A stretch of DNA of 64,000 nt, taken from positions 1-64,000 of the forward strand of contig NZ_JARXYX010000024.1 in the NCBI RefSeq assembly GCF_029893585.1, written 5' to 3'. The position numbers and the translations under genes are program-made. Under the pieces are notes generated by a model. That model made no database searches and was not told the DNA's origin. It saw only the letters and a list, made by a program, of their open reading frames with translations. This DNA comes from Streptomyces sp. LBL. Lineage in GTDB: Bacteria > Actinomycetota > Actinomycetes > Streptomycetales > Streptomycetaceae. Below are positions 8,934 through 55,885 of the stretch, in pieces. How positions within the stretch are numbered: the first letter of the stretch is position 1; each line of letters opens with the position of its first letter.

Positions 8934-9935
8934 TTGGTAGTGACGCGGTTACGACACCCAGCACGACCAAGGAAGCCCGTTGCCCGATCAGTTGAGCATT
9001 ACCACCGTGCCTGCGTCCACGCGGTCACCCCTGGGTGTGACTGCTACGTGCACCGGTTCGGTTCGCTCGCTCCGGGACGGCGGGCAGGCTGCTATCCGAG
9101 TGACATGACGGATGCGGAGTGGGCCGAGGTCCGCGCCGCGATGCCGGTGCCGGCCTGGCTCCTCAAGCGGGGTGGGCGTCCGGAGGCGTTTTGCCACCGC
9201 GAGATGCTTGACGCGGTGCGCTACCTGGTCGACAACGGCGTGAAGTGGACGGCTCTGCCGGTCGATTTCCCGTACTGGCGGGCGGTCTACGACTTCTTCC
9301 GCCGCTGGCGGGCCTACGACTATGCGCGTGAACTGTACGAACGCCTGCGACGTTCGGCGAGGGAGCGCGCAGGCCGCAACGCCGAGCCCAGTGGCGGGAT
9401 CATCGACAGTCAGTCGGTGGACGCCTCCGAGACCGTCGGCGAGGACAGTCGCGGATACGACGGCGGCAAGTCACGTGACGGGCGCAAGCGTCACATCCTG
9501 ACCGACACCGAGGGCCTGCTCCTGGAGGTGACCGTGACCACGGCCGATGTGCACGACTCCAAGGCCGCCCCCGCGCTGCTGGAGACGTTCATGCAGCAGC
9601 CGGGCCGGCTGCTGCAACTGGTGTGGGTCGACAACGCCTACCAGGGTCCGGCGCTGGCGAAGGCGTTCGCCCGTCACGGAGTCCGGATCGAGGTAGTGCG
9701 TCGATCCGATGGGCAACGCGGATTTGTCGTACTGGCCCGCAGGTGGGTCGTGGAGCGAACGCTGAGCTGGCTCTCCCGCTCACGCCGCCTCAACCGCGAC
9801 CACGAACGCCGCCCCGATCACCACGCCCAGATGGTGTGGTGGGCAGCCACGATCAGGCTGTCGCGCCAGTTGGCCGGCGATGCCCCGCGCTGGCCGGAGA
9901 AGCGTCCCGGCCGACGGCCCCGGGCTCAGGCATGA
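8934..9935 (+). CDS. IS5-family transposase
   Basis: This DDE transposase has an N-terminal DUF4096-type HTH segment (PSDMTDAEWAEV, then GGRPEAFCHREMLDAVRYLVDNGVKW). The catalytic triad is visible as D in GGIIDSQSVDAS, D in VWVDNAYQG and E in RRWVVERTLSWLSRS, and the HDSKAAPALL segment sits between the first two. The reading frame is uninterrupted, so the enzyme may be active. Start is uncertain: the conserved family sequence begins near the GTG at 9048 (295 residues), while the frame is open from 8934. The C-terminus overlaps antisense to the broken minus-strand gene. Confidence 0.9.
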   Translation: MVVTRLRHPARPRKPVARSVEHYHRACVHAVTPGCDCYVHRFGSLAPGRRAGCYPSDMTDAEWAEVRAAMPVPAWLLKRGGRPEAFCHREMLDAVRYLVDNGVKWTALPVDFPYWRAVYDFFRRWRAYDYARELYERLRRSARERAGRNAEPSGGIIDSQSVDASETVGEDSRGYDGGKSRDGRKRHILTDTEGLLLEVTVTTADVHDSKAAPALLETFMQQPGRLLQLVWVDNAYQGPALAKAFARHGVRIEVVRRSDGQRGFVVLARRWVVERTLSWLSRSRRLNRDHERRPDHHAQMVWWAATIRLSRQLAGDAPRWPEKRPGRRPRAQA

Positions 9936-9939
9936 ACCG

Positions 9940-10431
9940 TCCGTTCTTCTCCCGCAGCAGCCAGCCCCCTTCTCCAGCGCGTAGGCACGGTGCCGGATCT
10001 TCTCCACCTCGTTCTTGATCTCCGCTTCCCGGCCCACCGCCCGCGTCAGCTCCACTCCGTTCACCGGCCCCGAAGCGGCCACCACCGCGGCGAACACCTC
10101 CCGATAGAGGCCGCTGAGCACCTCCTCGCCCATGCCCGACCACCACACCAGCGGCCGCTCACCATGCCCCGCGCCCGGGCCGCCCGATCCCACGGCGGCA
10201 GCCATCTCACCACCGGACGGCACGGAAACCGGCGTATTCACCGGGCTCTCCTCGGCCAGCACCGACACGAGCTCCTCACACCCCACCCGGGCCCGCTCGA
10301 CCCGCTCCCGCGCGGCATCCACCTCCGCCTGAGCCTGCTCCAGGACCTCCGTCCAGGACCTCCGTCCAGAACTCCAGATCCTGCCTCGCCCGCGCCTCAC
10401 GCCGTTCCATCAACCCCAGCACCGACGGCAT
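9940..10431 (-). pseudogene. Frameshifted winged-helix gene of an older IS
   Basis: A strong GAGGAGG site precedes ATG 10431, and the protein begins MPSVLGLMERREARARQDL. A 13-bp tandem duplication (CAGGACCTCCGTC at 10341-10353 and 10354-10366) then shifts the frame. The continued frame encodes an Ala/Glu-rich coiled-coil and a winged-helix segment with GVELTRAVGRE and EKIRHRAYALEK. A second, single-base loss near 9975 breaks it again before GWLLREKNGRF. The C-terminus is lost at the transposase junction. It is probably an accessory gene of a formerly autonomous IS and is now dead. Function of the intact family is unknown to me. Confidence 0.65.
10341..10366. repeat. 13-bp perfect tandem duplication causing a frameshift
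   Basis: Two adjacent copies of CAGGACCTCCGTC. Removing one restores the reading frame of the winged-helix gene (…FWTEVLEQAQAEV…), so the duplication is a recent slippage event. Confidence 0.9.
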
Positions 10432-10535
10432 CGCACCCTCCTCGATCCACAACAAGCCGTCCGCTGCCTGCCCCTACCTCAGGGCGATCATGCCCCGCAC
10501 ACGAAGAAGCCCCTGCTCATCGAACAGGGACTCCC

Positions 10536-10552
10536 TTTGCCGCAACGCACTT
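10536..10552 (-). repeat. Right terminal inverted repeat of the IS
   Basis: TTTGCCGCAACGCACTT is the inverted partner of 8837-8853. On the minus strand it is followed by the leader and ribosome site of the broken winged-helix gene, as expected for an element end. Confidence 0.6.
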
Positions 10553-10724
10553 CAGATCTTGACCAACACATAGGGCCCCCGCCGTCACGACGAGATCCCG
10601 CGCCACCTGCCGCTCAGGGACGCCTTCCCCCGTGACCGGTAGCGGCAAGGTCCGCATGCGAGGAACTGAGGGAGGCGGCGCGGAAACTCACGGCCATGTG
10701 ACCAATCGGGTCAGATGAGCCTGG

Positions 10725-11174
10725 TCAGCGGATTTCCGTGACCCGGTGCTCCTTCAGGGTGGCGCAGTTGGAGTTTTCGACCGACACGTACACGTTGTCG
10801 ATGCTGCCGCCCCAGCTCACACAGTGGCCCTTGCCGTAGATGTAGATCGGCCCCGCGTACGAGGTGTAGTTCCCGGAGTCTTCGGCCGAGTCGCCGGTGT
10901 CGGGGACATAGACGTACGCGGCCATGAGCTTGGCCGTGCCGGGGTTGGCGCGGATGGTCGCGACGCAGTTCTTGCCGTTGGAGGAGTTGTACGTCAGGTA
11001 GACGGTGCCCAGCGAGCCGACAGGTGCCGAGTTCACGGTCTTGTAGGCGCTGCCGCAGACGCCCTGCGGTGTGACGTTGGGTGCGGCGGAGGCGGTCGTG
11101 GCCAACGCGGTCGTGGCACCCACCGCCAGAGCAGCTAACGCTCCAACGGTCGCGGCATTACGTGTAAATCTCAT
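10725..11174 (-). CDS. SapA-like secreted spore-associated protein
   Basis: This 149-residue secreted protein has a Sec signal peptide (residues 1-31: basic start, Ala/Leu/Thr core, cleavage near ASAA). The mature part is all-beta-like with four cysteines (VCGSAY, KNCVAT, GHCVSW, SNCATL), suggesting two disulfides. It also has the Gly/Tyr-rich YTSYAGPIYIYGKGHC segment characteristic of Streptomyces spore-associated protein A. Family members copurify with spores and have no enzymatic assignment. It lies between the IS and small unknown genes and is transcribed alone. Assignment rests on sequence pattern. Confidence 0.75.
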   Translation of the reverse strand: MRFTRNAATVGALAALAVGATTALATTASAAPNVTPQGVCGSAYKTVNSAPVGSLGTVYLTYNSSNGKNCVATIRANPGTAKLMAAYVYVPDTGDSAEDSGNYTSYAGPIYIYGKGHCVSWGGSIDNVYVSVENSNCATLKEHRVTEIR

Positions 11175-13790: not shown

Positions 13791-13868
13791 CTGCGGCTGT
13801 GCCCCGGACCGGGTGGGTGGGTGCGCGTACCCCGTGCTTGCCCGGTGCTGCAGCGGCACCCTGTCTGT

Positions 13869-15230
13869 TCAGTCCAGGTAACCCCTGAGCTGGTCCGCGC
13901 AGGTGTGGTCACGGAGTTTGTTCAGGGTCTTCGACTCGATCTGGCGGATCCGTTCCCTCGTCACGCCGAAGATGCGGCCTATCTCCTCCAGGGTGCGCGG
14001 GCGGCCGTCCGCCAGTCCGTAGCGGAGTTGGACGACCTTGCGCTCGCGCTCGCCGAGGGTGGAGAGGACCGCCTCCAGGTGTTCCCTGAGCAGCATGAAC
14101 GCGGCCGACTCGACGGGGCTGGCCGCGTCGCCGTCCTCGATGAGGTCGCCGAAGGCGACGTCGTCCTCCTCCCCCACGGGCGCGTGCAGGGAGACGGGTT
14201 CCTGGGCCAGGCGCAGGACCTCGCTGACGCGCTCCGGCGTCAGGTCCAGGTACGCGGCGACGTCTTCCGGCGTCGGTTCGTAGCCCCGCTCCTGCAACAT
14301 CCGGCGCTGGACGCGGACCACCCGGTTGATCAGCTCGACCACATGGACCGGGACGCGGATGGTGCGGGCCTGGTCGGCGAGGGCGCGGGACATGGCCTGA
14401 CGGATCCACCAGGTGGCGTACGTCGAGAACTTGTAGCCGCGGGCGTAGTCGAACTTCTCCACCGCCCGGATCAGGCCCAGGTTGCCCTCCTGGACCAGGT
14501 CGAGCATGGTCAGGCCGCGGCCGACGTACCGTTTGGCCACGGACACGACCAGCCGCAGGTTCGCCTCGATGAGGCGGCGCTTGGCCATCCGGCCCCTGAC
14601 GACCAGCTTGTCCAGGTCGAGGGCGATCTGGCTGTCCAGGTCGGGGGCGGTGCTGAGCTTCTCCTCGGCGAACAGGCCGGCCTCGACCCGGCGGGCGAGG
14701 TCGACCTCCTCGGCCGCGGTGAGCAGCGGGATGCGGCCGATCTCTCGCAGGTACTGGCGGAACAGGTCCGAGGAAGGTCCGCTGGTGTCGGCCTTGGCAC
14801 GGGCCGGTTCGGGGGGCTCGGGGGGCTCGGGGGACTCGACGGGCTCCGACTCCGGGGCGTCGGCGGTCTCGACCGCGTCCGTGGGCGGTTCCTCGAACTC
14901 GGACCGGGCCTCCGGCTCCGCCTCGGGGTGGTGCACGGCACGATTCTGCGGCGGGACCGCCGCGAGTACGTCGGTCTCCGTATCCGGTTCCGTGTCGTCC
15001 GTACCGATGTCGGTCAGGGTCTGGGTCTGCACGGGGGCGACCTCCAGGATGATCGCTGCTGAGGTGTGCGGCAGCGGTACTTCGGGGGCGGAGTCGGCGG
15101 CCTCGCCGCTGTCCGTCCCGTACGCGATGAGCGGAACCGCGGGGGTGTGGAATCCGTTGAGGACGGATCGGCCGCGCTCCGAGGACTCAGGCACCGCAAC
15201 CCAGTGTGGAGTACGACGCATCGCCGCCAC
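13869..15230 (-). CDS. hrdA: RNA polymerase principal-type sigma factor HrdA
   Basis: This sigma-70 group 1/2 factor has 453 residues. The N-terminal 145 are a Pro/Glu/Ala-rich, low-complexity extension ([10 protein letters not shown]). Region 1.2 then begins at [18 protein letters not shown]. The core motifs are regions 2.1-2.4 ([57 protein letters not shown]), region 3 ([13 protein letters not shown]) and region 4.2 ([19 protein letters not shown]). Adjacency to dnaG on the same strand matches the hrdA-dnaG neighbourhood known in Streptomyces, which supports HrdA over HrdC/HrdD. It would bind core polymerase and recognise vegetative-type promoters. Start is GTG 15230 or ATG 15221. Its 3' end abuts the relaxase remnant. 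Confidence 0.9.
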
Positions 15231-15296
15231 GAGGGGCGTGCGGTGACTTTTTGAGGCCGACCCGTGACCGCGCGGTTACCCGTCGCGACGATCGGC

Positions 15297-17201
15297 TCAG
15301 AGCGCGGCGGCTCCGTGCTCGCGTAGTGCCTGGTCGTACTGCTGGAGTACCCACAATTCGTTCTGTACCGCAGCCGACTGGGCCGGGTCTCGGTGCGTGT
15401 CGAGGCGGGTCAGGCTGGACTGGATGTCCCGGATGCGGCGCTCGACCGCGCGGCGGCGGACCGTGACGAGCTGGTCGCCCGCATAGTTCTCGTCGACCGT
15501 CTTGCGCATGATCGCCTCGACCGCGAGCTCCGTGACCATCGCGCGGACGGTGTTGTCGGGGGCCACGTCGCGGACCCGGATCAGGTATTCCTGGGAGTCC
15601 CCGACGCCGAACTCCGCGCCGCCCGCGTCCATGATCGCCTGGCGTACGGCCGCGTAGGGCGCGGCGGTGAACTCGTCGAGGCCGTACGCGTCGAACGCCG
15701 GGGAGACCAGCTCGGGCCGCTGGAGGGCGAGCTTGAGGAGTTCACGCTCGGTGGCGTAGACCGGGTTGCGGAGGTTGAGCGCCGGGCCGGACGGGAGGGC
15801 GCGCGGGACGGCGTCGTACTGCCGCTGCCCGTTGGTCGCCGTCGGCGCCGGGCCCTTGCCGCCGCGGTCGCGGGCCCAGCGGGCCAGTTGGGCCACCCGC
15901 TTGACCACGAACTGGGTGTCGAGGATGCCGAGCATGCCGGCGAGCTGCACGGCGACCTCGTGCTGGGCGCCGGTGTTCTTGATGCGGGCGACGATCGGGG
16001 CGGCCTCGTCCAGGGCGGCGGCGCGGCCGGCGGGGGTGTCCAGGTCGTAGCGGAGGACGATCTGGCGCAGGGCGAACTCGAAGAGCGGGGTGCGGGGTTC
16101 GACCAGGTCGGCGACCGCGTCGTCGCCCTTGGCGAGGCGGAGGTCGCAGGGGTCCATGTTGTCGGGGGCGATGGCGATGTACGTCTCGGCGGCGAACTTC
16201 TGGTCGTCCTCGAAGGCGCGCAGGGCCGCCTTCTGGCCGGCCGCGTCACCGTCGAAGGTGAAGATCACGCGGGCCGAGCCGTTGTCCATGAGGAGACGGC
16301 GGAGGATCTTGATGTGGTCGCTGCCGAAGGCCGTACCGCAGGTCGCGATGGCCGTCGTCACGCCGGCCAGGTGGCAGGCCATGACGTCGGTGTAGCCCTC
16401 GACCACGACCGCGCGGCTGGACTTGGCGATGTCCTTCTTCGCCAGGTCGATGCCGTAGAGGACCTGGGACTTCCGGTAGATCGCGGTGTCGGGCGTGTTG
16501 AGGTATTTGGGGCCGTTGTCCGACTCGTAGAGCTTGCGGGCGCCGAAGCCGACGACCTCGCCGCCGATGTCGCGGATCGGCCACATCAAACGGCCGCGGA
16601 AGCGGTCGATGGGGCCGCGGCGGCCCTCCTGGGAGAGGCCGGAGAGGAGGATCTCCTTGTCGCTGAAGCCCTTGCCGCGGAGATGGCGGGTGAGGTGGTC
16701 CCAGCCCTGGGGGCTGTAACCGACGGAGAAGTGTTCGGCGGCGGCCTGGTCGAAGCCGCGCTCGGCGAGGAACGTGCGGCCGGCGTCGGCCTCCGGGCTG
16801 GTGGCCAGCTGCTCCATGTACCACTGCGCGGCGGTCTTGTGGGCCTCGACCAGACGGATCCGCTCACCGCGCTGGTGGGAGGGGTTGTACCCGCCCTCCT
16901 CGTACCGCAGGGTGATGCCGGCCTGGGCGGCGAGGCGCTCGACCGACTCGGAGAAGGAGAGGTGGTCGACCTTCATCACGAACGTGATGGTGTCGCCGCC
17001 CTCCTGGCAGCCGAAGCAGTGGAAGAGCCCCTTGCTCGGGCTGACCTGGAAGGACGGCGACTTCTCGTCGTGGAACGGGCACAGCCCCTTGAGGTTGCCG
17101 CCGCCCGCGTTGCGCAGCTGGAGGTACTCGGACACCACGGCGTCGATCGGGACCGCGTCCCGTACCGCCTTCACGTCCTCGTCGTTGATCCGTCCTGCCA
17201 C
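15297..17201 (-). CDS. dnaG: DNA primase
   Basis: This 634-residue primase synthesises RNA primers for the replication fork. Its zinc finger is intact (C41-H44-C62-C65 in CPFHDE and HCFGCQ). The RNA-polymerase domain includes GFGARKLYESDNGPKYLNTPDT. The TOPRIM motifs are VVVEGYTDVMA with the catalytic Glu and FDGDAAG with DxD-like acidic residues. A helicase-interacting helical C-terminus ends EHGAAAL. Length is normal. It lies 66 bp upstream of hrdA on the same strand, so read-through transcription into the sigma gene is possible. Confidence 0.97.
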   Translation of the reverse strand: MAGRINDEDVKAVRDAVPIDAVVSEYLQLRNAGGGNLKGLCPFHDEKSPSFQVSPSKGLFHCFGCQEGGDTITFVMKVDHLSFSESVERLAAQAGITLRYEEGGYNPSHQRGERIRLVEAHKTAAQWYMEQLATSPEADAGRTFLAERGFDQAAAEHFSVGYSPQGWDHLTRHLRGKGFSDKEILLSGLSQEGRRGPIDRFRGRLMWPIRDIGGEVVGFGARKLYESDNGPKYLNTPDTAIYRKSQVLYGIDLAKKDIAKSSRAVVVEGYTDVMACHLAGVTTAIATCGTAFGSDHIKILRRLLMDNGSARVIFTFDGDAAGQKAALRAFEDDQKFAAETYIAIAPDNMDPCDLRLAKGDDAVADLVEPRTPLFEFALRQIVLRYDLDTPAGRAAALDEAAPIVARIKNTGAQHEVAVQLAGMLGILDTQFVVKRVAQLARWARDRGGKGPAPTATNGQRQYDAVPRALPSGPALNLRNPVYATERELLKLALQRPELVSPAFDAYGLDEFTAAPYAAVRQAIMDAGGAEFGVGDSQEYLIRVRDVAPDNTVRAMVTELAVEAIMRKTVDENYAGDQLVTVRRRAVERRIRDIQSSLTRLDTHRDPAQSAAVQNELWVLQQYDQALREHGAAAL

Positions 17202-44488: not shown

Positions 44489-45004
44489 GGGTCTCGACTC
44501 CTTGAGGCCGCGGTGGCTGCCCTGATGGCGAGGAACATACCCAGATCGAAGGCACATGGGTACATCCACTTGCGCGTCATGTGCCTGTAACCACTCGTCC
44601 GCCAGCGGATCGAAAGTCAAAGCTTGGCAAGCGGAGACAGGCCGATGTTTTCACTTCCTGAACGCACCACCACCCACAGACCCCGGATTTCGCTCTTATG
44701 AGCAGCTCTCGGCACGTCTGATTTCGATCGATGAACGATCAAGTGGTGGCACTCAGTGCCACCCCTTGGAGAAGTGCAGTCGCTCATGATCCGCTCGTCT
44801 GAGCGCGACCCTTATCAAGGGTGGCGAGAATCACGCTGCCACAGGCGCGGGGATTTCACCATGCGGACGGGAATCCGGACCCGTATCCGGCCGGAAACAC
44901 GGCCGACACGGCTGCAACGGTGACACGGCTGACACGCGGGGCGGGGCAAGACCTCGCAGCGGAACGACCGCTGTCCAGGATCAGGGGTTTCAGGTCTCCG
45001 GCGG
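44489..45004. other. ppdK upstream region, no gene
   Basis: This relatively AT-rich stretch includes AAAGCTTGGCAAGC, TTTCGATCGATGAACGATC and a perfect 17-bp palindrome (annotated separately). It should contain the ppdK promoter. The part from 44820 to 45004 is the downstream region of the beta-helix gene and shows no gene. Confidence 0.55.
44746..44762. promoter_or_regulatory. Perfect 17-bp palindrome upstream of ppdK
   Basis: GTGGCACTCAGTGCCAC has two perfect 8-bp arms about a central base, 258 bp before the ppdK start. The arms resemble a compact dimeric repressor site; the regulator is unknown. Confidence 0.5.
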
Positions 45005-46423
45005 TCAGTAGCCTTTGACGAAGTTGATCACGTACCACTTGGTGGTGGTGGCGTTGTAGATCGCGGTGAGGAAGTCGCGCTTGTTCGGCGTCGTGGTGAG
45101 TGTGGTCGAGGAGATGGTGGTGCCCAGGGCGAACGCGGAGCTGAGGATGAGGGCGCGGCTGCCGGTTGCGTCCTGGATGAGTTCCCAAGTGATGCGTTGT
45201 CCGTCGGTGGGGTTGGTGGGGGTGCCCAGGGTTCGGTTGCCTTTGAGGGTGACGCGGAAGAGGTTTCCCAGTGCGGCGTTGGTGGCGATGGTGGCGGCGT
45301 CGGTGAGGGTGACGGGGGCGGGGTTGACCTTCGCGTCGACGTAGTCCTTGCGCGTCAGGTGTTCGGCCGAGGTCGGGGAGGCGGTGGTGGAGACGTTGCC
45401 TTCGTAGTAGGCGGAGTTCGAGCCGTAGACGAAGCCGCTGGCCACCGTGCCGCCGGCGGTGTCGTTGATGACGTTGGTGTAGCCGGCCAGCGACAGGGGT
45501 TTCACGTTGCTGACATCGCCGAGGGTGGCCGAGCACCCGGCGTCGACGGTGACCGAGTTGACCGCTGCGGTGGTGGGGGTGTTCTCGGCGAATCCGAGGA
45601 TGCTGACGGCTCGTGCGGCGCCGGTGACCCAGATGCTGATGCTGGGGCTGTTGTAGGTGAAGGAGTTGTACAGGCCCACACCGATCGCGGCGTTGATCTT
45701 CCAGCTGTAGCCGTTGTATCCGGTGCCGCGGTTGACCGCGGATTCGGCGCCGCATCCAGTGAAGCTGATGCCCTGACTGCCGACGCCGGTCACCTCGTAG
45801 CCGATGCCGCAGTGGTCGGCGGCGCAGCCGACGAAGGAGCAGTAGGCCATGGTGTCGATGTGGAAGCCCGCGTTGGTGATGGTGTCGGCGTAGCAGGACG
45901 TGAACGAGCAGCTGGTCCCTGCGGCGCCTCCGGAGACCCCGTGGATGTTCCAGCCGTGGTTGCCGTTGTTGGCCGAGGTCACGCCTTCGAACGTGGAGAC
46001 GATCGGGTTGGAGAGGTCGATTCCGCTGTCACCGAAGAACTTCACGGTCATCCGCGCGAACGCCAGTGAGACGGTCGCGGGGTTGGCGGATCGCGTGAGC
46101 ACGATGCCCTTGCCGCTGCCGCTGCCCGGGCCTTGGAAGGTGAGATCCTGGATGGTCAGCCGGGTGATGTCCGAGCCGCTCAGCCCGTTGGCGGTGGTGC
46201 TGCTCTGTGAGATCACCGACGAGCCGTCACTGACGCCTTCCAGGATGAGGTTGGAGCGTGCCACCAGGACGGAGGAGATCTTGTAGGTGCCTGCGGGGAA
46301 GACGACCGTTCCGCCGGAGGAGGGCACCGCGTTGATCGCGGTTTGGATCGCGGTGGTGTCGTCGGTGACGCCGTTGCCGGTGGCTCCGTAGTCCAGGACG
46401 TTGAACCAGTAGCTGGTGGCCAT
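45005..46423 (-). CDS. Right-handed beta-helix protein, pectate-lyase-3/phage tail-spike-like
   Basis: This 472-residue protein starts with the pectate lyase 3 / tail-spike signature FNVLDYGATGNGVTDDTTAIQTAI (8-31) and GGTVVFPAGTYKISS. Serial beta-helix coils rich in Gly/Asn/Ser follow to about 330. A C-terminal domain has HLTRKDYVDAK, GNLFRVTLKGNRTLGTPTNPTDGQRITWELIQDATGSR and KWYVINFVKGY, which resembles the C-terminal part of actinophage tail proteins. No signal peptide is seen. The ribosome site ACGGAGA lies six bases before the ATG. No other phage genes flank it, so it is an orphan, and it is divergent from a glycosyltransferase. Confidence 0.85.
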   Translation of the reverse strand: MATSYWFNVLDYGATGNGVTDDTTAIQTAINAVPSSGGTVVFPAGTYKISSVLVARSNLILEGVSDGSSVISQSSTTANGLSGSDITRLTIQDLTFQGPGSGSGKGIVLTRSANPATVSLAFARMTVKFFGDSGIDLSNPIVSTFEGVTSANNGNHGWNIHGVSGGAAGTSCSFTSCYADTITNAGFHIDTMAYCSFVGCAADHCGIGYEVTGVGSQGISFTGCGAESAVNRGTGYNGYSWKINAAIGVGLYNSFTYNSPSISIWVTGAARAVSILGFAENTPTTAAVNSVTVDAGCSATLGDVSNVKPLSLAGYTNVINDTAGGTVASGFVYGSNSAYYEGNVSTTASPTSAEHLTRKDYVDAKVNPAPVTLTDAATIATNAALGNLFRVTLKGNRTLGTPTNPTDGQRITWELIQDATGSRALILSSAFALGTTISSTTLTTTPNKRDFLTAIYNATTTKWYVINFVKGY

Positions 46424-46954
46424 GATGATCTCCGTTCAGGTTCGCATCGAGTCGATAAGTCGACTCAAAACTGAGGTCTTATGAGGAGTTCGGCCGCGGC
46501 GAAGCGGCACCGTCAATGGACATGGAGCCGGTTCGAGCCGGTCAGGATCGGGGGTGGCCGCATTCGGTCAACGCGCCTCGATGAGGAGGCGACTCGCCGT
46601 CATCACTTAACGTAACTGTACGAAAGCACCGCGTAAAGGGTTTTGCTGCGTCAATCTTCACCCGTGGTGATGACGCCACGTCAACCGCGCGCGCCGCGAC
46701 GGCGTCCGCCGAGAAGAGTGGTCGCCGACCGTGACCGCTCTCGGCAGAGCGGGTTCGTCTCTTCGGCGCGCCAGAGCTACGGGGCTGCCGAGTACTCCGA
46801 CAGACCCCCACCGCAGCCTCCGATCGGGGACGGCTGCTGCTCTGTTCGGGCCAGGCACCCCCCGTGCCGGGGCGACCCCGCGCCAGAATCCTGTAGGTGA
46901 GACCTCAAGGCGCCGGCCCGCCGATTGGCGCCATGGGATGTGGAGGAGTCGCTG
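46424..46954. other. Divergent promoter region, no gene
   Basis: This 530-bp gap between the beta-helix gene and the glycosyltransferase has an AT-richer core (about 46600-46650, CTTAACGTAACTGTACG and TAAAGGGTTTT) likely to hold promoters. An inverted repeat lies at 46449-46466. Open frames seen here have shadow-like composition. Confidence 0.55.
46449..46466. promoter_or_regulatory. Inverted repeat in the leader of the beta-helix gene
   Basis: GAGTCGA (46449-46455) and TCGACTC (46460-46466) are perfect 7-bp arms around TAAG, 26 bp upstream of the ATG. It could be an operator or a 5'-leader hairpin controlling translation. Confidence 0.45.
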
Positions 46955-48409
46955 GTGAGCCGGTTCGGACCGACGCGGGGACAGACGCGCAAGCAGGCGC
47001 GCGGGCCTGCCTTCGTGCGCCAGCCCAGGAACCTCACCCGGGAGGGTCGCACCAAGCCCGGGCACATCCCGGACCTGCGCCACGCGGGACCGGGACGCAT
47101 CGTCGTGCTGGTACCGGCCCACAATGAGGAAGCGCTCATCGCCGAGACCCTGGAGTCCCTGGCGGCTCAGACCAGGCCCCCGGACGAGGTCATCGTGGTC
47201 GCCGACCGCTGCACCGACCGGACCGCTCGGATCAGCACCGCTCACGGCGCCAAGGCCGTCGAAACGGTCGGCAACACCCAGGACAAGGCGGGCGCACTCA
47301 ACCAGGTCCTGGCCCGGCTGCTGCCGCAGCTGCGCGACCACGACGCCGTCATGGTCATGGACTCCGACACCTCGCTGTCTCCCCAGTTCATCGCCGAGGC
47401 AGCCCGGCGCCTGCGCCACCAGGAACCCGACCAGTCACCCATCGGCGGCGTCGGCGCCATCTTCTTCGGCCACCCCCTGCACGGCCTGGTCTGCCACCTC
47501 CAGAACAACGAGTACGTGCGCTACGCCCGTGAACTCCACCGCCGCCACGGCCGCGCCGACGTCCTGACCGGCACCGCCTCCCTCTTCCCCGTCCACGCCC
47601 TGCGCCACGTCCACGAAGCCCGCGCCCACGGCTCACTGCCCCGAGGCCGGGACGTCTACGACGTGGAGTCACTGACCGAGGACAACGAACTCACCCTCGC
47701 ACTCAAACACCTCGGCTACCGCTGCGTGTCACCGTGCGCCTGCATCGTGGGCACCGAACTCATGCCCACCTGGTCCCGGCTGTACTACCAGCGGCTGCGC
47801 TGGCAACGCGGCGCCCTGGACAACCTCAAGGCCTACGGCACCACCCGGGCCACCCTGCCCTATGTCTGCCGGCAACTGCTCACCTACCTCAGCGTGGCCT
47901 TCGTCCCCTTCTTCCTCACCGTCCTGGTCTACTACACCGCCGCCAAGGGCTTCCCCGGCTGGCCGTGGTTCTGGCTCGCGATCACCTCCATCGCCGCCTT
48001 CGAACGCGTCTGGGCCGCCAAACGCGGCGGATGGAAGGCCCTGCTCCTGGCCGTCATGATCGTGCCCGAGCTCCTCTTCGACCAGTTCCTCAACGTGATC
48101 TACACCAAAGCACTCATCGACCTCCTGACCGGCGCCGGCGCCACCTGGGAACGCACGCACAGCAGGACCCGCCGCCTGCGCGAAGCGATCACCACAGCGG
48201 CGGGCTTCACCCTCCTGCTCGCCGCTGTCGTAGGCCTGGCCCTCGCCTGCATCGCCCTCGGCATCGCCTGGACCCTCATCGCGCTCTTCGTCCTGTGCGG
48301 CGTCGCCGCAGCCGTCATCCGCCTCAGCCGCCTCCACCCCCTCGGGCTGCTCCTGTCCCTACCCAGCGGCGAACAGCCGCACGGCGACATCCCACCCTGG
48401 CGTCAGTGA
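46955..48409 (+). CDS. Processive family-2 glycosyltransferase (hyaluronan/chitin-synthase-like)
   Basis: This 484-residue membrane enzyme would polymerise a polysaccharide from a nucleotide sugar. GT2 motifs are in order: VLVPAHNEEALIAETLESL, VADRCTDRT (first Asp), VMDSDTSL (DxD), a TGTASLFPV acceptor loop, ESLTEDNELTLAL (ED catalytic base) and QRLRWQRGA (QxxRW). Four or so TM helices cluster at the C-terminus (about 300-355 and 410-460). GTG 46955 has GGAGGAG six bases upstream. No polymer-modifying genes other than the divergent beta-helix protein are near. Sugar and product are unknown. Confidence 0.9.
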   Translation: MSRFGPTRGQTRKQARGPAFVRQPRNLTREGRTKPGHIPDLRHAGPGRIVVLVPAHNEEALIAETLESLAAQTRPPDEVIVVADRCTDRTARISTAHGAKAVETVGNTQDKAGALNQVLARLLPQLRDHDAVMVMDSDTSLSPQFIAEAARRLRHQEPDQSPIGGVGAIFFGHPLHGLVCHLQNNEYVRYARELHRRHGRADVLTGTASLFPVHALRHVHEARAHGSLPRGRDVYDVESLTEDNELTLALKHLGYRCVSPCACIVGTELMPTWSRLYYQRLRWQRGALDNLKAYGTTRATLPYVCRQLLTYLSVAFVPFFLTVLVYYTAAKGFPGWPWFWLAITSIAAFERVWAAKRGGWKALLLAVMIVPELLFDQFLNVIYTKALIDLLTGAGATWERTHSRTRRLREAITTAAGFTLLLAAVVGLALACIALGIAWTLIALFVLCGVAAAVIRLSRLHPLGLLLSLPSGEQPHGDIPPWRQ

Positions 48410-48578
48410 GAAGGCATCAGCTCACGGGCGTAGGCGCGTGCACGGAGTCCCTCAGGCAGACCTTGCAGCCTCTGCCGCCCGGAGGGCAGCCAGATGGACC
48501 ACGCCACTGTGGCCCAAGGAGATCCGGCCGAGCGTCCCCCACCGGGGCGCGGCACGGCATCGCCAACCGCACCGCACC

Positions 48579-49911: not shown

Positions 49912-51420
49912 GTGGATCGCGCAGTGCAGCTCATCGCCCGCAACACAGGACACTTGGATCCGGTACGCACCATTTCCTCACCCCCCGTTTCCGGCCATGG
50001 TGAGGCAACGGCATCCGGGACCGCGCCGAGGAGCGTTGTATACGGTCTCACCGCGCCGACACATTCACCGCCCACGGCACCTTCCCTGCACGCCAGGGCC
50101 GCCCGTGTGCTGGACGGCAACTGGACCGGCACCTCCACGGTGCCGTCCCACGGTCTGTATCCGCACCAGTGGTCCTGGGACTCCGCGTTCATCGCGATCG
50201 GCCTACGGCACATCTCGCCGTTACGAGCACAGACGGAGCTGGAGACACTGCTCGACGCCCAGTGGGGCGACGGCCGGATCCCGCACATCGTCTTCAACCC
50301 CTCCGTACCGCTCGACGCGTACTTCCCGAGCCCCGACTTCTGGCGCTCCTCGACCGCGGGGCGCGCTGCGGGCGCCCCGCGCACCGCACAGACCTCCGGC
50401 ATCGTGCAGCCACCGGTGCACGCACTGGCGGCCTGGCTGGTGCACCGCGCCGACCCGGGGCTGTCCCGGGCGCGCGGCTTCCTCGCCCGGGTGTATCCCC
50501 GGCTCGCTGCCTGGCACCGGTATCTGCTGCACCGGCGCGACCTGGGCGGGGGCTCCCTCGCGTCCGTCGTGCACCCCTGGGAACAGGGTATGGACAACAG
50601 CCCCTGCTGGGACGCCCCGCTCGCCCGGATCACGCCCGCCCCGGCCCGTTCCTTCCGACGCGCGGACCTCGACCACGGGGCGGCGGAGGACCGGCCGACG
50701 GACCTGGACTACGGGCGGTATGTGCGACTGGCGACGGACTACCGGGATCAGGACTACGTCGACGGGGTGAGCGAGTTCGCGGTGGAGGATCCCTCCTTCA
50801 ACGCCCTGCTCATCGCCTCCGAGCACGCGCTCGCCCGGATCGCCGAGGAACTGGGCGCGACGGGTACGGCCCGGCGCACGCGTGCGGAACGCCTGACGGC
50901 GGCACTCGTGGACCGGCTGTGGGACCCGGTGGCGGGCCTGTTCCGGTGCCGGGATGTGCGGGGCGGGGAGCTGATCCCCGAGCGGAGCGTGTCCGGGCTG
51001 GTCCCGCTACTGCTGCCGGACCTGCCGCAGGAGGTCACCGCCGGGCTGCTGCGCACCCTGGGCGGCGCGCACTTCGGCCTCGGTGACACCACCCGCCTGG
51101 TCCCGAGCTACGACCTGCTCGGCGAGGCCTTCGACCCGCACCGGTACTGGCGCGGGCCGGCCTGGTTCAACACGAGCTGGCTGGTGGAGCGCGGGTTGCG
51201 CACCCACGGCGAGCGGGACCGCGCCGACGCGCTGCGGACGGCGGCCCTGGACCTCGCCGGCGCCACCGACTTCGCGGAGTACGTCGACCCGTACACCGGT
51301 GAGGCATGTGGGACGACCGGCTTCAGCTGGACCGCCGCGCTCACCCTCGACCTGCTGCACACAGGCCCCGGGGACGACGTGTCCCCGGCGGCCCTCCGCA
51401 CGTTCGGCATGCATGAGTGA
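49912..51420 (+). CDS. GH63-like (alpha/alpha)6-barrel glycosidase
   Basis: This 502-residue cytoplasmic glycosidase of the trehalase/mannosylglycerate-hydrolase (GH63-like) type has barrel motifs LYPHQWSWDSAFIAIGLRH, WGDGRIPHIVFNP, VVHPWEQGMDNSPCWDAPL, VEDPSFNALLIASEH and YWRGPAWFNTSWLVERGL. WEQGMDNSPCWD contains the conserved catalytic-acid Asp region. GTG 49912 has GGGGAG six bases upstream. No signal peptide. It precedes a debranching-enzyme-like gene via a bridging micro-ORF and is divergent from the ROK regulator, suggesting uptake and breakdown of an alpha-linked oligosaccharide. Confidence 0.85.
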   Translation: MDRAVQLIARNTGHLDPVRTISSPPVSGHGEATASGTAPRSVVYGLTAPTHSPPTAPSLHARAARVLDGNWTGTSTVPSHGLYPHQWSWDSAFIAIGLRHISPLRAQTELETLLDAQWGDGRIPHIVFNPSVPLDAYFPSPDFWRSSTAGRAAGAPRTAQTSGIVQPPVHALAAWLVHRADPGLSRARGFLARVYPRLAAWHRYLLHRRDLGGGSLASVVHPWEQGMDNSPCWDAPLARITPAPARSFRRADLDHGAAEDRPTDLDYGRYVRLATDYRDQDYVDGVSEFAVEDPSFNALLIASEHALARIAEELGATGTARRTRAERLTAALVDRLWDPVAGLFRCRDVRGGELIPERSVSGLVPLLLPDLPQEVTAGLLRTLGGAHFGLGDTTRLVPSYDLLGEAFDPHRYWRGPAWFNTSWLVERGLRTHGERDRADALRTAALDLAGATDFAEYVDPYTGEACGTTGFSWTAALTLDLLHTGPGDDVSPAALRTFGMHE

Positions 51421-53547: not shown

Positions 53548-53704
53548 CTGACCGGTTGGGCAGTGATTTGCCCGGTGTTTGCCGAGCAGTGGGCAAAAGG
53601 GCTGAACAGCGGACGGAGCCGAACCGTACGGGAATGCGGTGGATACCGACCCCAAGGGGGCCGGGTCCGCCGCTCCACCGGGCTTCGTACGGAAGGACCT
53701 TCGG

Positions 53705-55885
53705 GTGCCTGTCTTCACGCGCTTTCGCCAGCCGCCGGACTCGGGCGACAACAATGCCTCCGTCCCTCCGGCGAGCGAAGCGGCACCGGCCGAGGCCGCG
53801 ACGGACACGGCCGTCACCGACACGGCGGTAACCGACACGGCCGTCACCGACACGGCCGTCACCGACCCTGCCGCCACCGACAAGACGGCGCCCGGTGAAG
53901 CAGTAACCGACAAGCGCTCGCCCGACGAGGCGACGTCGGACGAGGCGCCGTCGGACGACACAGCGTCGGACGAGACCGCACCCGACGAGACCGCATCGGA
54001 CGAGACCGCGCCCGACGAGACCGCACCGGACGCGGCCACTCAGGACAAGACCGCACCCGACCAGGCCACGCCCGACGAGGCTTCGCCCGACGCCCCCCCG
54101 CCCCCTCCCGCCGGTGACGCCCCCGCCGCTGACGCCTCCGCCGGCGCCAAGACCCGCCTCAGAGCCTCGTCGCCGTCCGCCGCCGCGTCCGGGGCGCCCG
54201 CGCCGCAGACGTCCCGCCTGGCCCACTGGCGTTCCTGGCGCACCCGTCACTCCACCGCCGCCCGCACCCTCTACTGGACGACCTCCGTGCTCGCCGCCGT
54301 CCTGGTGTACGGGGCGTTGCTGATGCCGAACAGGATCGCCGCGCTGGAACCCAACCGGTTCACGCGGCTGCCGGCGGAGGCGATCCTCGGGGCGGCCCTG
54401 GTGCTCGCGCTGCCGCGGCGGCCGCGGATGGTCCTGGCGGCGCTCTGCGGGGCGCTCCTCGGTGGGCTGACGATCGTGAACTTCCTCGACATGGGGTTCC
54501 AGGAGTACCTCGGCCGGGGCTTCAACCTGATCCTGGACTGGGTCCTGCTGGACGACGCGCAGGCGTACATCCAGGACTCGATGGGCCGGACGACCGCCAT
54601 CGCCGCCGCCGTCGGCGCGGTCGTCCTCGTCGTCCTGCTGCTGGTGCTCATGGCGCTGGCGACGGTCCGGCTGAGCAACCTGCTCGTGCGCGACACCCGG
54701 ACGGCCACCCGGGCCACCCTGGTCGCCGGCACCGTCTGGATCACCTGCGCCACCCTGGGCCTCCAGTTCAACGGCGTGCCGATCGCCTCCGACCGGTCCG
54801 CCGGCACCCTGAAGGTGCAGGCGGGGCGGGTCGTTGACACCGTGCGGGACGAGGCGGCGTTCCAGAAGGAGGCCAAGGCCGACCAGTTCGGCAACACGCC
54901 CGCCGACCAGTTGGTGCCGGACCTGCGCGGCAAGGACATGATCTTCACCTTCATCGAGAGCTACGGCCGCAGCGCGATCGAGGACCCGGGCATCGCACCC
55001 GGCGTCGACAGGACGCTGGAGGCCGGAACCGCGGCGCTGGACAAGGCCGGTTTCCACGCCAAAAGCGGCTGGCTGACCTCGGCGACCTACGGCGGCAGCA
55101 GTTGGCTCGGCCACTCCACCTCCCTGTCCGGCCTGTGGATCGACAACCAGCAGCGCTACCGGACCGTGATGTCCAGCGACCATCTCAGCCTCACCAAGGC
55201 GTTCAAGAAGACCGGTGCCTGGGACACCGTCGGGGTGATGCCCGGTGTGCAGAAGGGGTGGCCGGAGCAGAGTTTCTACGGCCTCGACAAGGTCTACAAC
55301 GCCTTCCAGATGGGCTACAAGGGCCCGAAGTTCAGCTGGTCGACCATGCCGGACCAGTACGCGCTGGAGGCGTTCCAGAAGCTGGAGCACAGCAAGAAAC
55401 GCGACAAGCCGCTGATGTCGGAGATCATCCTGACCTCCAGCCACCAGCCCTGGTCGCCCATCCCGAAGATGGTCGGCTGGGACGAGCTCGGCGACGGCTC
55501 GGTGTTCGGGCCGATCCAGCGGGCCGGCACCAAACCGTCGGACATCCTCACCGACTCCACCCGCTCCAAGCAGGAGTACGGCAAGTCGATCCAGTACTCC
55601 GTGACCAGCCTCACCCAGTGGCTGGAGCGCTACGGCACCGACGACACCGTCCTCGTCTTCCTCGGCGACCACCAGCCGATCGCCCGGGTCAGCGGCAACC
55701 ACGCCAGCCGTGACGTGCCCGTCTCGATCGTCGCGAGGGACCCGAAGGTCCTCGACAAGGTCGCCGGGTGGAACTGGACGGAGGGGCTGAAGCCCGCCAA
55801 GAACGCGCCGGTGTGGAAGATGAGTGCGTTCCGCGACCGCTTCCTGACGGCGTACGGCTCGACACCCCACCCGTCCAAGGACTGA
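53705..55885 (+). CDS. LTA-synthase/sulfatase-like membrane phosphatase-transferase
   Basis: The first 165 residues are cytoplasmic and made of TDTAV (four copies) and S/T-D-E-T-A-P repeats, ending in a Pro run. Four TM helices follow (about 195-335), then an extracellular alkaline-phosphatase-fold domain with IFTFIESYGRSAI (metal-site Glu), TSATYGGSSWLGHSTSLSGL (nucleophile Ser/Thr region), SEIILTSSHQPW and VLVFLGDHQPIA (DH metal ligands). This fold transfers or hydrolyses phosphoglycerol or sulfate groups at the cell envelope. GTG 53705 has GGAAGGA seven bases upstream; a GTG at 53639 would add 22 residues. 726 residues. Confidence 0.85.
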   Translation: MPVFTRFRQPPDSGDNNASVPPASEAAPAEAATDTAVTDTAVTDTAVTDTAVTDPAATDKTAPGEAVTDKRSPDEATSDEAPSDDTASDETAPDETASDETAPDETAPDAATQDKTAPDQATPDEASPDAPPPPPAGDAPAADASAGAKTRLRASSPSAAASGAPAPQTSRLAHWRSWRTRHSTAARTLYWTTSVLAAVLVYGALLMPNRIAALEPNRFTRLPAEAILGAALVLALPRRPRMVLAALCGALLGGLTIVNFLDMGFQEYLGRGFNLILDWVLLDDAQAYIQDSMGRTTAIAAAVGAVVLVVLLLVLMALATVRLSNLLVRDTRTATRATLVAGTVWITCATLGLQFNGVPIASDRSAGTLKVQAGRVVDTVRDEAAFQKEAKADQFGNTPADQLVPDLRGKDMIFTFIESYGRSAIEDPGIAPGVDRTLEAGTAALDKAGFHAKSGWLTSATYGGSSWLGHSTSLSGLWIDNQQRYRTVMSSDHLSLTKAFKKTGAWDTVGVMPGVQKGWPEQSFYGLDKVYNAFQMGYKGPKFSWSTMPDQYALEAFQKLEHSKKRDKPLMSEIILTSSHQPWSPIPKMVGWDELGDGSVFGPIQRAGTKPSDILTDSTRSKQEYGKSIQYSVTSLTQWLERYGTDDTVLVFLGDHQPIARVSGNHASRDVPVSIVARDPKVLDKVAGWNWTEGLKPAKNAPVWKMSAFRDRFLTAYGSTPHPSKD
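53800..54110 (+). repeat. Coding minisatellite in the sulfatase-like gene
   Basis: 15-bp units encode TDTAV four times (about 53810-53870), followed by degenerate 18-24-bp units encoding SDETAPDETA. Units stay in frame and produce an acidic, probably disordered cytoplasmic tail. Confidence 0.85.

Follow-up and report, generated by a model that had tools for sequence, protein, structure and literature searches.

A phage tail-spike-like protein recurrently paired with a processive membrane glycosyltransferase in Streptomycetaceae

Two divergent genes on a 3.7-kb insertion

The analyzed window, a 64,000-nucleotide stretch of a 9.35-Mb genome of the Streptomyces group, carries a tail-spike-like gene and a glycosyltransferase gene side by side. 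The first (45005–46423, minus strand) encodes a 472-aa protein, hereafter the spike, recognized by Pfam and PHROG matches, a structure model and dN/dS across loci. Its architecture comprises a right-handed β-helix (residues ~5–320), a linker (321–369) and a C-terminal β-sandwich of the phage tail-fibre type (371–472). The initial annotation had called this a pectate-lyase-3/tail-spike protein with an actinophage-like C terminus, and both parts of the call were borne out: PF12708 matched at the N terminus (E = 1e-15), the PHROG matches were to phage tail-spike families (best E = 7e-15) and the minor tail protein of Streptomyces phage Kromp shares 44% identity with the C-terminal module. A signal peptide, reported missing at the outset, is impossible in the window because the upstream frame closes after ~4 codons. 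The lack of phage neighbors was likewise confirmed; phage genes are absent from the neighborhood, and there is no injection-system cluster either.

The second gene (46955–48409, plus strand) encodes a GT2 membrane glycosyltransferase (GT) of the processive type, assigned from its motifs, family models and membership of its own clade. The open reading frame at 46925–48409 (+) matched PF13641 (E = 2e-22) and stood as originally called, except that the TTG start at 46925 was not upheld; translation most likely begins at the GTG at 46955, which is preceded by GGAGGAG, giving a predicted product of 484 aa. In that numbering the protein carries DSD at 136 (DxD), TED at 241 and QRLRW at 279 (QxxRW), and hydropathy places at least three hydrophobic segments beyond residue 308, as membrane helices after the catalytic domain. 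The earlier label 'hyaluronan-synthase-like' proved too specific, as no substrate-specific NCBIfam model came near its cut-off: the PgaC model scored 48.6 bits, far short of its cut-off of 422, and a hyaluronan synthase model was absent among the NCBIfam models listed for the GT. Identity as a hyaluronan synthase was rejected, since the family models give it no support.

Relatives of the GT occur in Microbacterium phages at 43–47% identity, near UDP-glucose dehydrogenase in Merry and Tyrumbra, and in a Streptococcus satellite phage at 36%; the family is thus common to phages and bacteria. The genome that holds the window has a GT paralog elsewhere (43% identity; G000:C10:227604-228821, L028), which is more widespread, being present in many spike-less Streptomyces genomes, and its GT2 matches in a 760-aa frame are only ~30% identical to the cassette GT.

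The pair sits on a 3.7-kb insertion (about 44870–48570, no strand assigned) bounded by ppdK and a ROK-family regulator gene. Five close relatives (L167–L171) have no insert at this site, the ppdK-side and ROK-side homologies lying only ~20–90 bp apart; the window insertion therefore consists of spike and GT and little else. It contains no transposase. Close to the insertion site, the gene at 49912–51420 resembles a glucosylglycerate hydrolase at a score below the curated cut-off. Elsewhere in the window, 53639–55885 encodes ~100 N-terminal residues of Thr/Asp/Ala-rich near-repeats followed by a membrane enzyme domain, possibly of the sulfatase or phosphoglycerol-transferase type.

The 530-bp gap between the two genes was compared with the intact locus of Kitasatospora genome G405 (L072). 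The window matched that locus in two blocks, 45001–46795 against 9106–10915 (92% identity) and 46785–48419 against 13824–15457 (94% identity), which overlap by ~11 bp at a junction at window positions 46785–46795 (no strand assigned). The split match thus indicates that the window copy lost a 2.9-kb piece carrying a GH13 and a GH26 gene, and the gap, judged from this alignment, is the scar that this deletion left, as opposed to a conserved control region. The proposal that the gap and its inverted repeat coordinate the pair did not survive this comparison, because neither the divergent order nor the gap is conserved and Streptomyces-type loci are co-directional; a regulatory role was rejected. 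The inverted repeat itself (I15; 16 nt, 81%) is a weak one, and a search between the genes for terminators, promoters and strong inverted repeats turned up nothing of note.

Recurrence, layout and transfer of the pair

The spike is rare in the genus, being present in 5 of 296 sampled genomes (E = 1e-20), and was found in 11 of 395 family genomes (E = 1e-30), with identity of ≥85% in nine of the 11. When 84,980 species genomes were scanned, seven spike loci were recovered, some overlapping the genus and family samples. Counting each genome once, 14 loci are near full length (the window, L017–L022, L024, L025, L072, L073 and L075–L077); the spike is an open reading frame in 13 of these and is frameshifted in L022. 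At every one of the 14, the spike has a GT of the same family no more than 5 kb away, against a chance of ~1.4e-4 per locus for such a gene to lie that close to a given point; GTs of this family (E below 1e-70) occur in 35 of the 296 genus genomes. Among the 395 family genomes, all eight with a cassette GT also have the spike, which is present in nine (hypergeometric P ~7e-16, a value that overstates independence because the genomes are related). In the ninth (L021), the spike is adjoined by a GT that belongs to the same family without being orthologous, as it is in L022, and these two GTs are only 44% identical to that of the window. The remaining cassette GTs form their own clade with support of 100/100, and spike divergence correlates with GT divergence (Mantel r = 0.90). 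Comparison of Kitasatospora and Streptomyces pairs showed no shared flanking sequence beyond matches that were short or paralogous and a single flank that L025 and L078 have in common. Distant β-helix homologs have no GT nearby. The spike–GT pairing is real: co-occurrence in other genomes, which the initial annotation had named among its checks, runs far beyond chance. No prophage or injection-system context was found at intact loci, and neither of the outcomes that the initial annotation listed as refuting its idea occurred. A literature search found no paper on such a pair.

Gene order around the pair varies, and only spike and GT are constant across layouts. In the Kitasatospora type, the spike faces away from GH13, GH26 and GT (L017, L072, L073 and L075, with L018 lacking GH13), whereas in the Streptomyces type GH13, spike and GT run in one direction (L019, L020, L025 and L076). 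Variants of the latter include L024, which lacks GH13, and L077, in which GH13 is reduced to a remnant and the GT is duplicated. The larger cassettes thereby add a GH13 protein (PF00128) and a GH26 protein of secreted type (PF02156) with a hydrophobic leader at its N terminus. Remnants were also recovered, namely a broken spike without GT (L023/L027), a spike fragment (L026) and, in L078, a truncated GT connected to what is left of a GH13 gene. In L077 (L077:4038-9187), the GT is duplicated and inverted beside the spike, and one copy is truncated.

The history of the pair differs from that of its neighbor ppdK. At the DNA level, window ppdK is 94% and 91% identical to that of Streptomyces genomes G254 and G124 and 82% identical to that of Kitasatospora genomes G405 and G471. 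The corresponding values for the spike are 88% and 88% against 96% and 93%, and those for the GT are 80% and 85% against 95% and 90%. With the pair closer to Kitasatospora and ppdK closer to Streptomyces, a Kitasatospora-like donor is the most likely source of the cassette, and the GT tree agrees, placing the window as sister to G405. These comparisons indicate a recent movement of the pair between Streptomyces and Kitasatospora. The dN/dS values (0.11–0.29 across loci with a median of 0.21 for the spike; median of 0.28 for the GT) point to purifying selection on both genes. At L021, genes for a serine resolvase and a tyrosine recombinase are found within ~4 kb of the cassette, as is a fragment of a Tn3 transposase; a search there for terminal repeats or transposon ends gave only chance-like inverted-repeat matches. 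The same region (L021:1706-9469) also has an apparent IS630-type transposase and is a possible cassette carrier.

Phage ancestry and predicted fold of the spike

Both spike domains match phage tail proteins by sequence and by predicted fold, in keeping with the phage-tail ancestry originally suggested. The β-helix is 40% identical over residues 6–328 to the tailspike of Streptomyces phage pSt2308, whose gene is located among phage structural genes, and 34–44% identical to the best viral contigs; the C-terminal module reaches up to 79% identity with viral contigs. The two domains occur apart in viral contigs, and searches with patterns built from single proteins returned none that encodes a near relative of the full-length spike or of the GT. 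An N-terminal virion-binding domain is missing, as the protein starts at the β-helix cap, and the start region MATSYW/MASSYW is common to all full-length loci. A second β-helix homolog (~39% identity) lies in G471, 43 kb from its cassette (L074:8731-10134), with a Tat-like N terminus and a different phage-type C terminus; it suggests that some Kitasatospora tail-spike-like proteins are secreted.

An AlphaFold2 monomer model of the spike had a mean pLDDT of 78, high for the helix and low for residues 321–369, and the C-terminal module modeled alone reached 87, with weak matches to phage tailspike and baseplate domains (Z = 7–9). The best fold match was to the A-modules of AlgE4 and AlgE6 (Z = 38, r.m.s.d. 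of 1.7–2.2 over 306–315 residues, 23–24% identity); other matches were to phi29 gp12, Geobacillus virus E2 ORF18, the Sf6 tailspike (Z = 34) and RbmB (Z = 32); PfbA, a β-helix surface adhesin, was also among the close structural matches. In fold the helix is nearest to polysaccharide epimerases, lyases and tail spikes. The catalytic motif of AlgE-type alginate C5-epimerases is DPHE, with a histidine. An AlgE-type epimerase was considered and rejected, as the fold matches but the HMM alignment puts (D/E)LSN where DPHE is expected.

Structure prediction had been proposed as a check for a trimeric β-helix with active-site acids. The β-helix was recovered in the monomer model, and three acids, D180, D203 and E227, are invariant in the 13 full-length cassette spikes and are suggestive of a candidate active site. 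Each lies in a Cys-x-x-acid motif and is spaced 23–24 residues from the next, ~one helix turn, and the aligned phage relatives have either Asp or Glu at position 227. Two invariant acids on neighboring turns of the model would suit a candidate hydrolase cleft.

Proposed function and comparison with known systems

We read the window pair as the reduced form of a horizontally mobile Streptomycetaceae exopolysaccharide cassette in which the spike binds, and probably cleaves, the polymer of the GT, a reading to which we give roughly even weight for and against. The GT2 enzyme would polymerize sugar from nucleotide-sugar donors and move the chain through the membrane; the spike, having lost its virion anchor, would trimerize, bind the GT-made polymer and probably cut it, which may trim the polymer or release hyphae. 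In the fuller cassettes, the secreted GH26 hydrolase would act on the polymer outside the cell, with the GH13 enzyme as a further addition. Export of the spike is the weakest step of this mechanism: because it has no signal peptide, it could reach a polymer outside the cell only through lysis or some other route, and it might leave, for example, when hyphae lyse. The loss of the alginate-epimerase motif and the lack of a GT beside distant β-helix homologs also weigh against the reading. Overall, the evidence is good for the unit and moderate for its function. That a phage tail spike was domesticated as the dedicated partner of an exopolysaccharide synthase, making a mobile unit of polymer maker and virus-derived cutter, is a plausible idea that we hold tentatively.

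The spike could instead be a matrix adhesin that has lost catalysis, its trimer binding or cross-linking the GT-made matrix so that the cassette promotes pellets or adhesion. The structural match to PfbA, the resemblance of the C-terminal module to phage tail and baseplate domains and the dependence of Streptomyces pellet formation on glycosyltransferase-made EPS (PMC5972031) all fit such a role, but the invariance of D180, D203 and E227 in 13 loci and the presence of hydrolases in the cassettes make it unlikely. We regard as rather more doubtful a part in phage conflict, with the GT coating or remodeling the surface against adsorption and a lysis-released spike serving as a decoy or stripping the receptors of neighbors. 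This would accommodate the GT relatives carried by the Streptococcus satellite phage and, close to UDP-glucose dehydrogenase, by Microbacterium phages, a spike without a signal peptide and a mobile cassette of patchy distribution; however, PADLOC models match neither spike nor GT, no defense genes came to notice close to the loci, and the GH26 and GH13 companions indicate polymer metabolism. A known defense system was rejected, as the sole PADLOC match, of GH13 to the GlgB model, most likely reflects a shared α-amylase domain.

It is improbable that the two genes are passive hitch-hikers, co-traveling on a mobile element without a common function. One copy does lie among Tn3 transposase, resolvase and recombinase genes, and L023, L026 and L078 have decayed, but dN/dS is ~0.2–0.3 in both genes, only spike and GT were retained when GH13 and GH26 were lost, a GT of another clade stands beside the spike in two loci, and the variable gene order is unlike a single frozen transposon. 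A stranded prophage remnant, with a leftover tail-spike gene beside a GT by accident, would explain why both spike domains are phage tail modules but is hardly credible and already contradicted by a window insertion of spike and GT only, by intact loci at which no phage structural genes were noted, and by recurrent GT linkage under purifying selection.

Tail spikes normally serve viruses against bacterial polysaccharides. That a spike–synthase pair is recurrent, selected and mobile suggests that bacteria can adopt this viral tool for their own matrix. As synthase and predicted depolymerase are co-inherited, GT expression would supply substrate for testing spike specificity, and the pair bears on tail-spike specificity, pellet control in Streptomyces fermentation and the spread of EPS gene sets.

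Among known systems, MatAB (PNAG) and CslA–GlxA of Streptomyces are glycosyltransferase-based EPS systems (PMC5972031) and share with the cassette a glycosyltransferase-made EPS in streptomycetes, but no tail-spike partner is described there. The AlgE4/AlgE6 mannuronan C5-epimerase A-modules are the best fold match of the spike and differ from it at the DPHE motif. Phage tail-spike depolymerases (Sf6 TSP, CBA120 TSP2, phi29 gp12 and the pSt2308 tailspike) have the same right-handed β-helix and N-cap motif, and phage tail proteins share the C-terminal module; unlike them, the spike has no virion-binding domain, lies outside a phage gene cluster and is linked to a bacterial synthase. It thus misses two defining features of virion tail spikes, the anchor and the gene cluster, though it is derived from tail spikes. 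RbmB, a polysaccharide lyase of Vibrio cholerae biofilms, degrades the organism's own EPS (PMC11637428) and, by predicted fold, resembles the spike as a β-helix (Z = 32, r.m.s.d. of 2.2–2.3), but identity is 15%, the gene set is unrelated and RbmB has no phage C-terminal module. TspA of RcGTA is a detachable, biofilm-degrading tailspike that works off the particle (PMC13420450, preprint); it too is phage derived and is used by a bacterium against the biofilm matrix, but it is produced together with gene-transfer-agent particles and carries an N-terminal domain of its own, whereas the present spike has a linked synthase and no particles. By analogy, the spike–GT system would resemble either RbmB, as an own-matrix lyase, or the gene-transfer-agent TspA, while belonging to neither.
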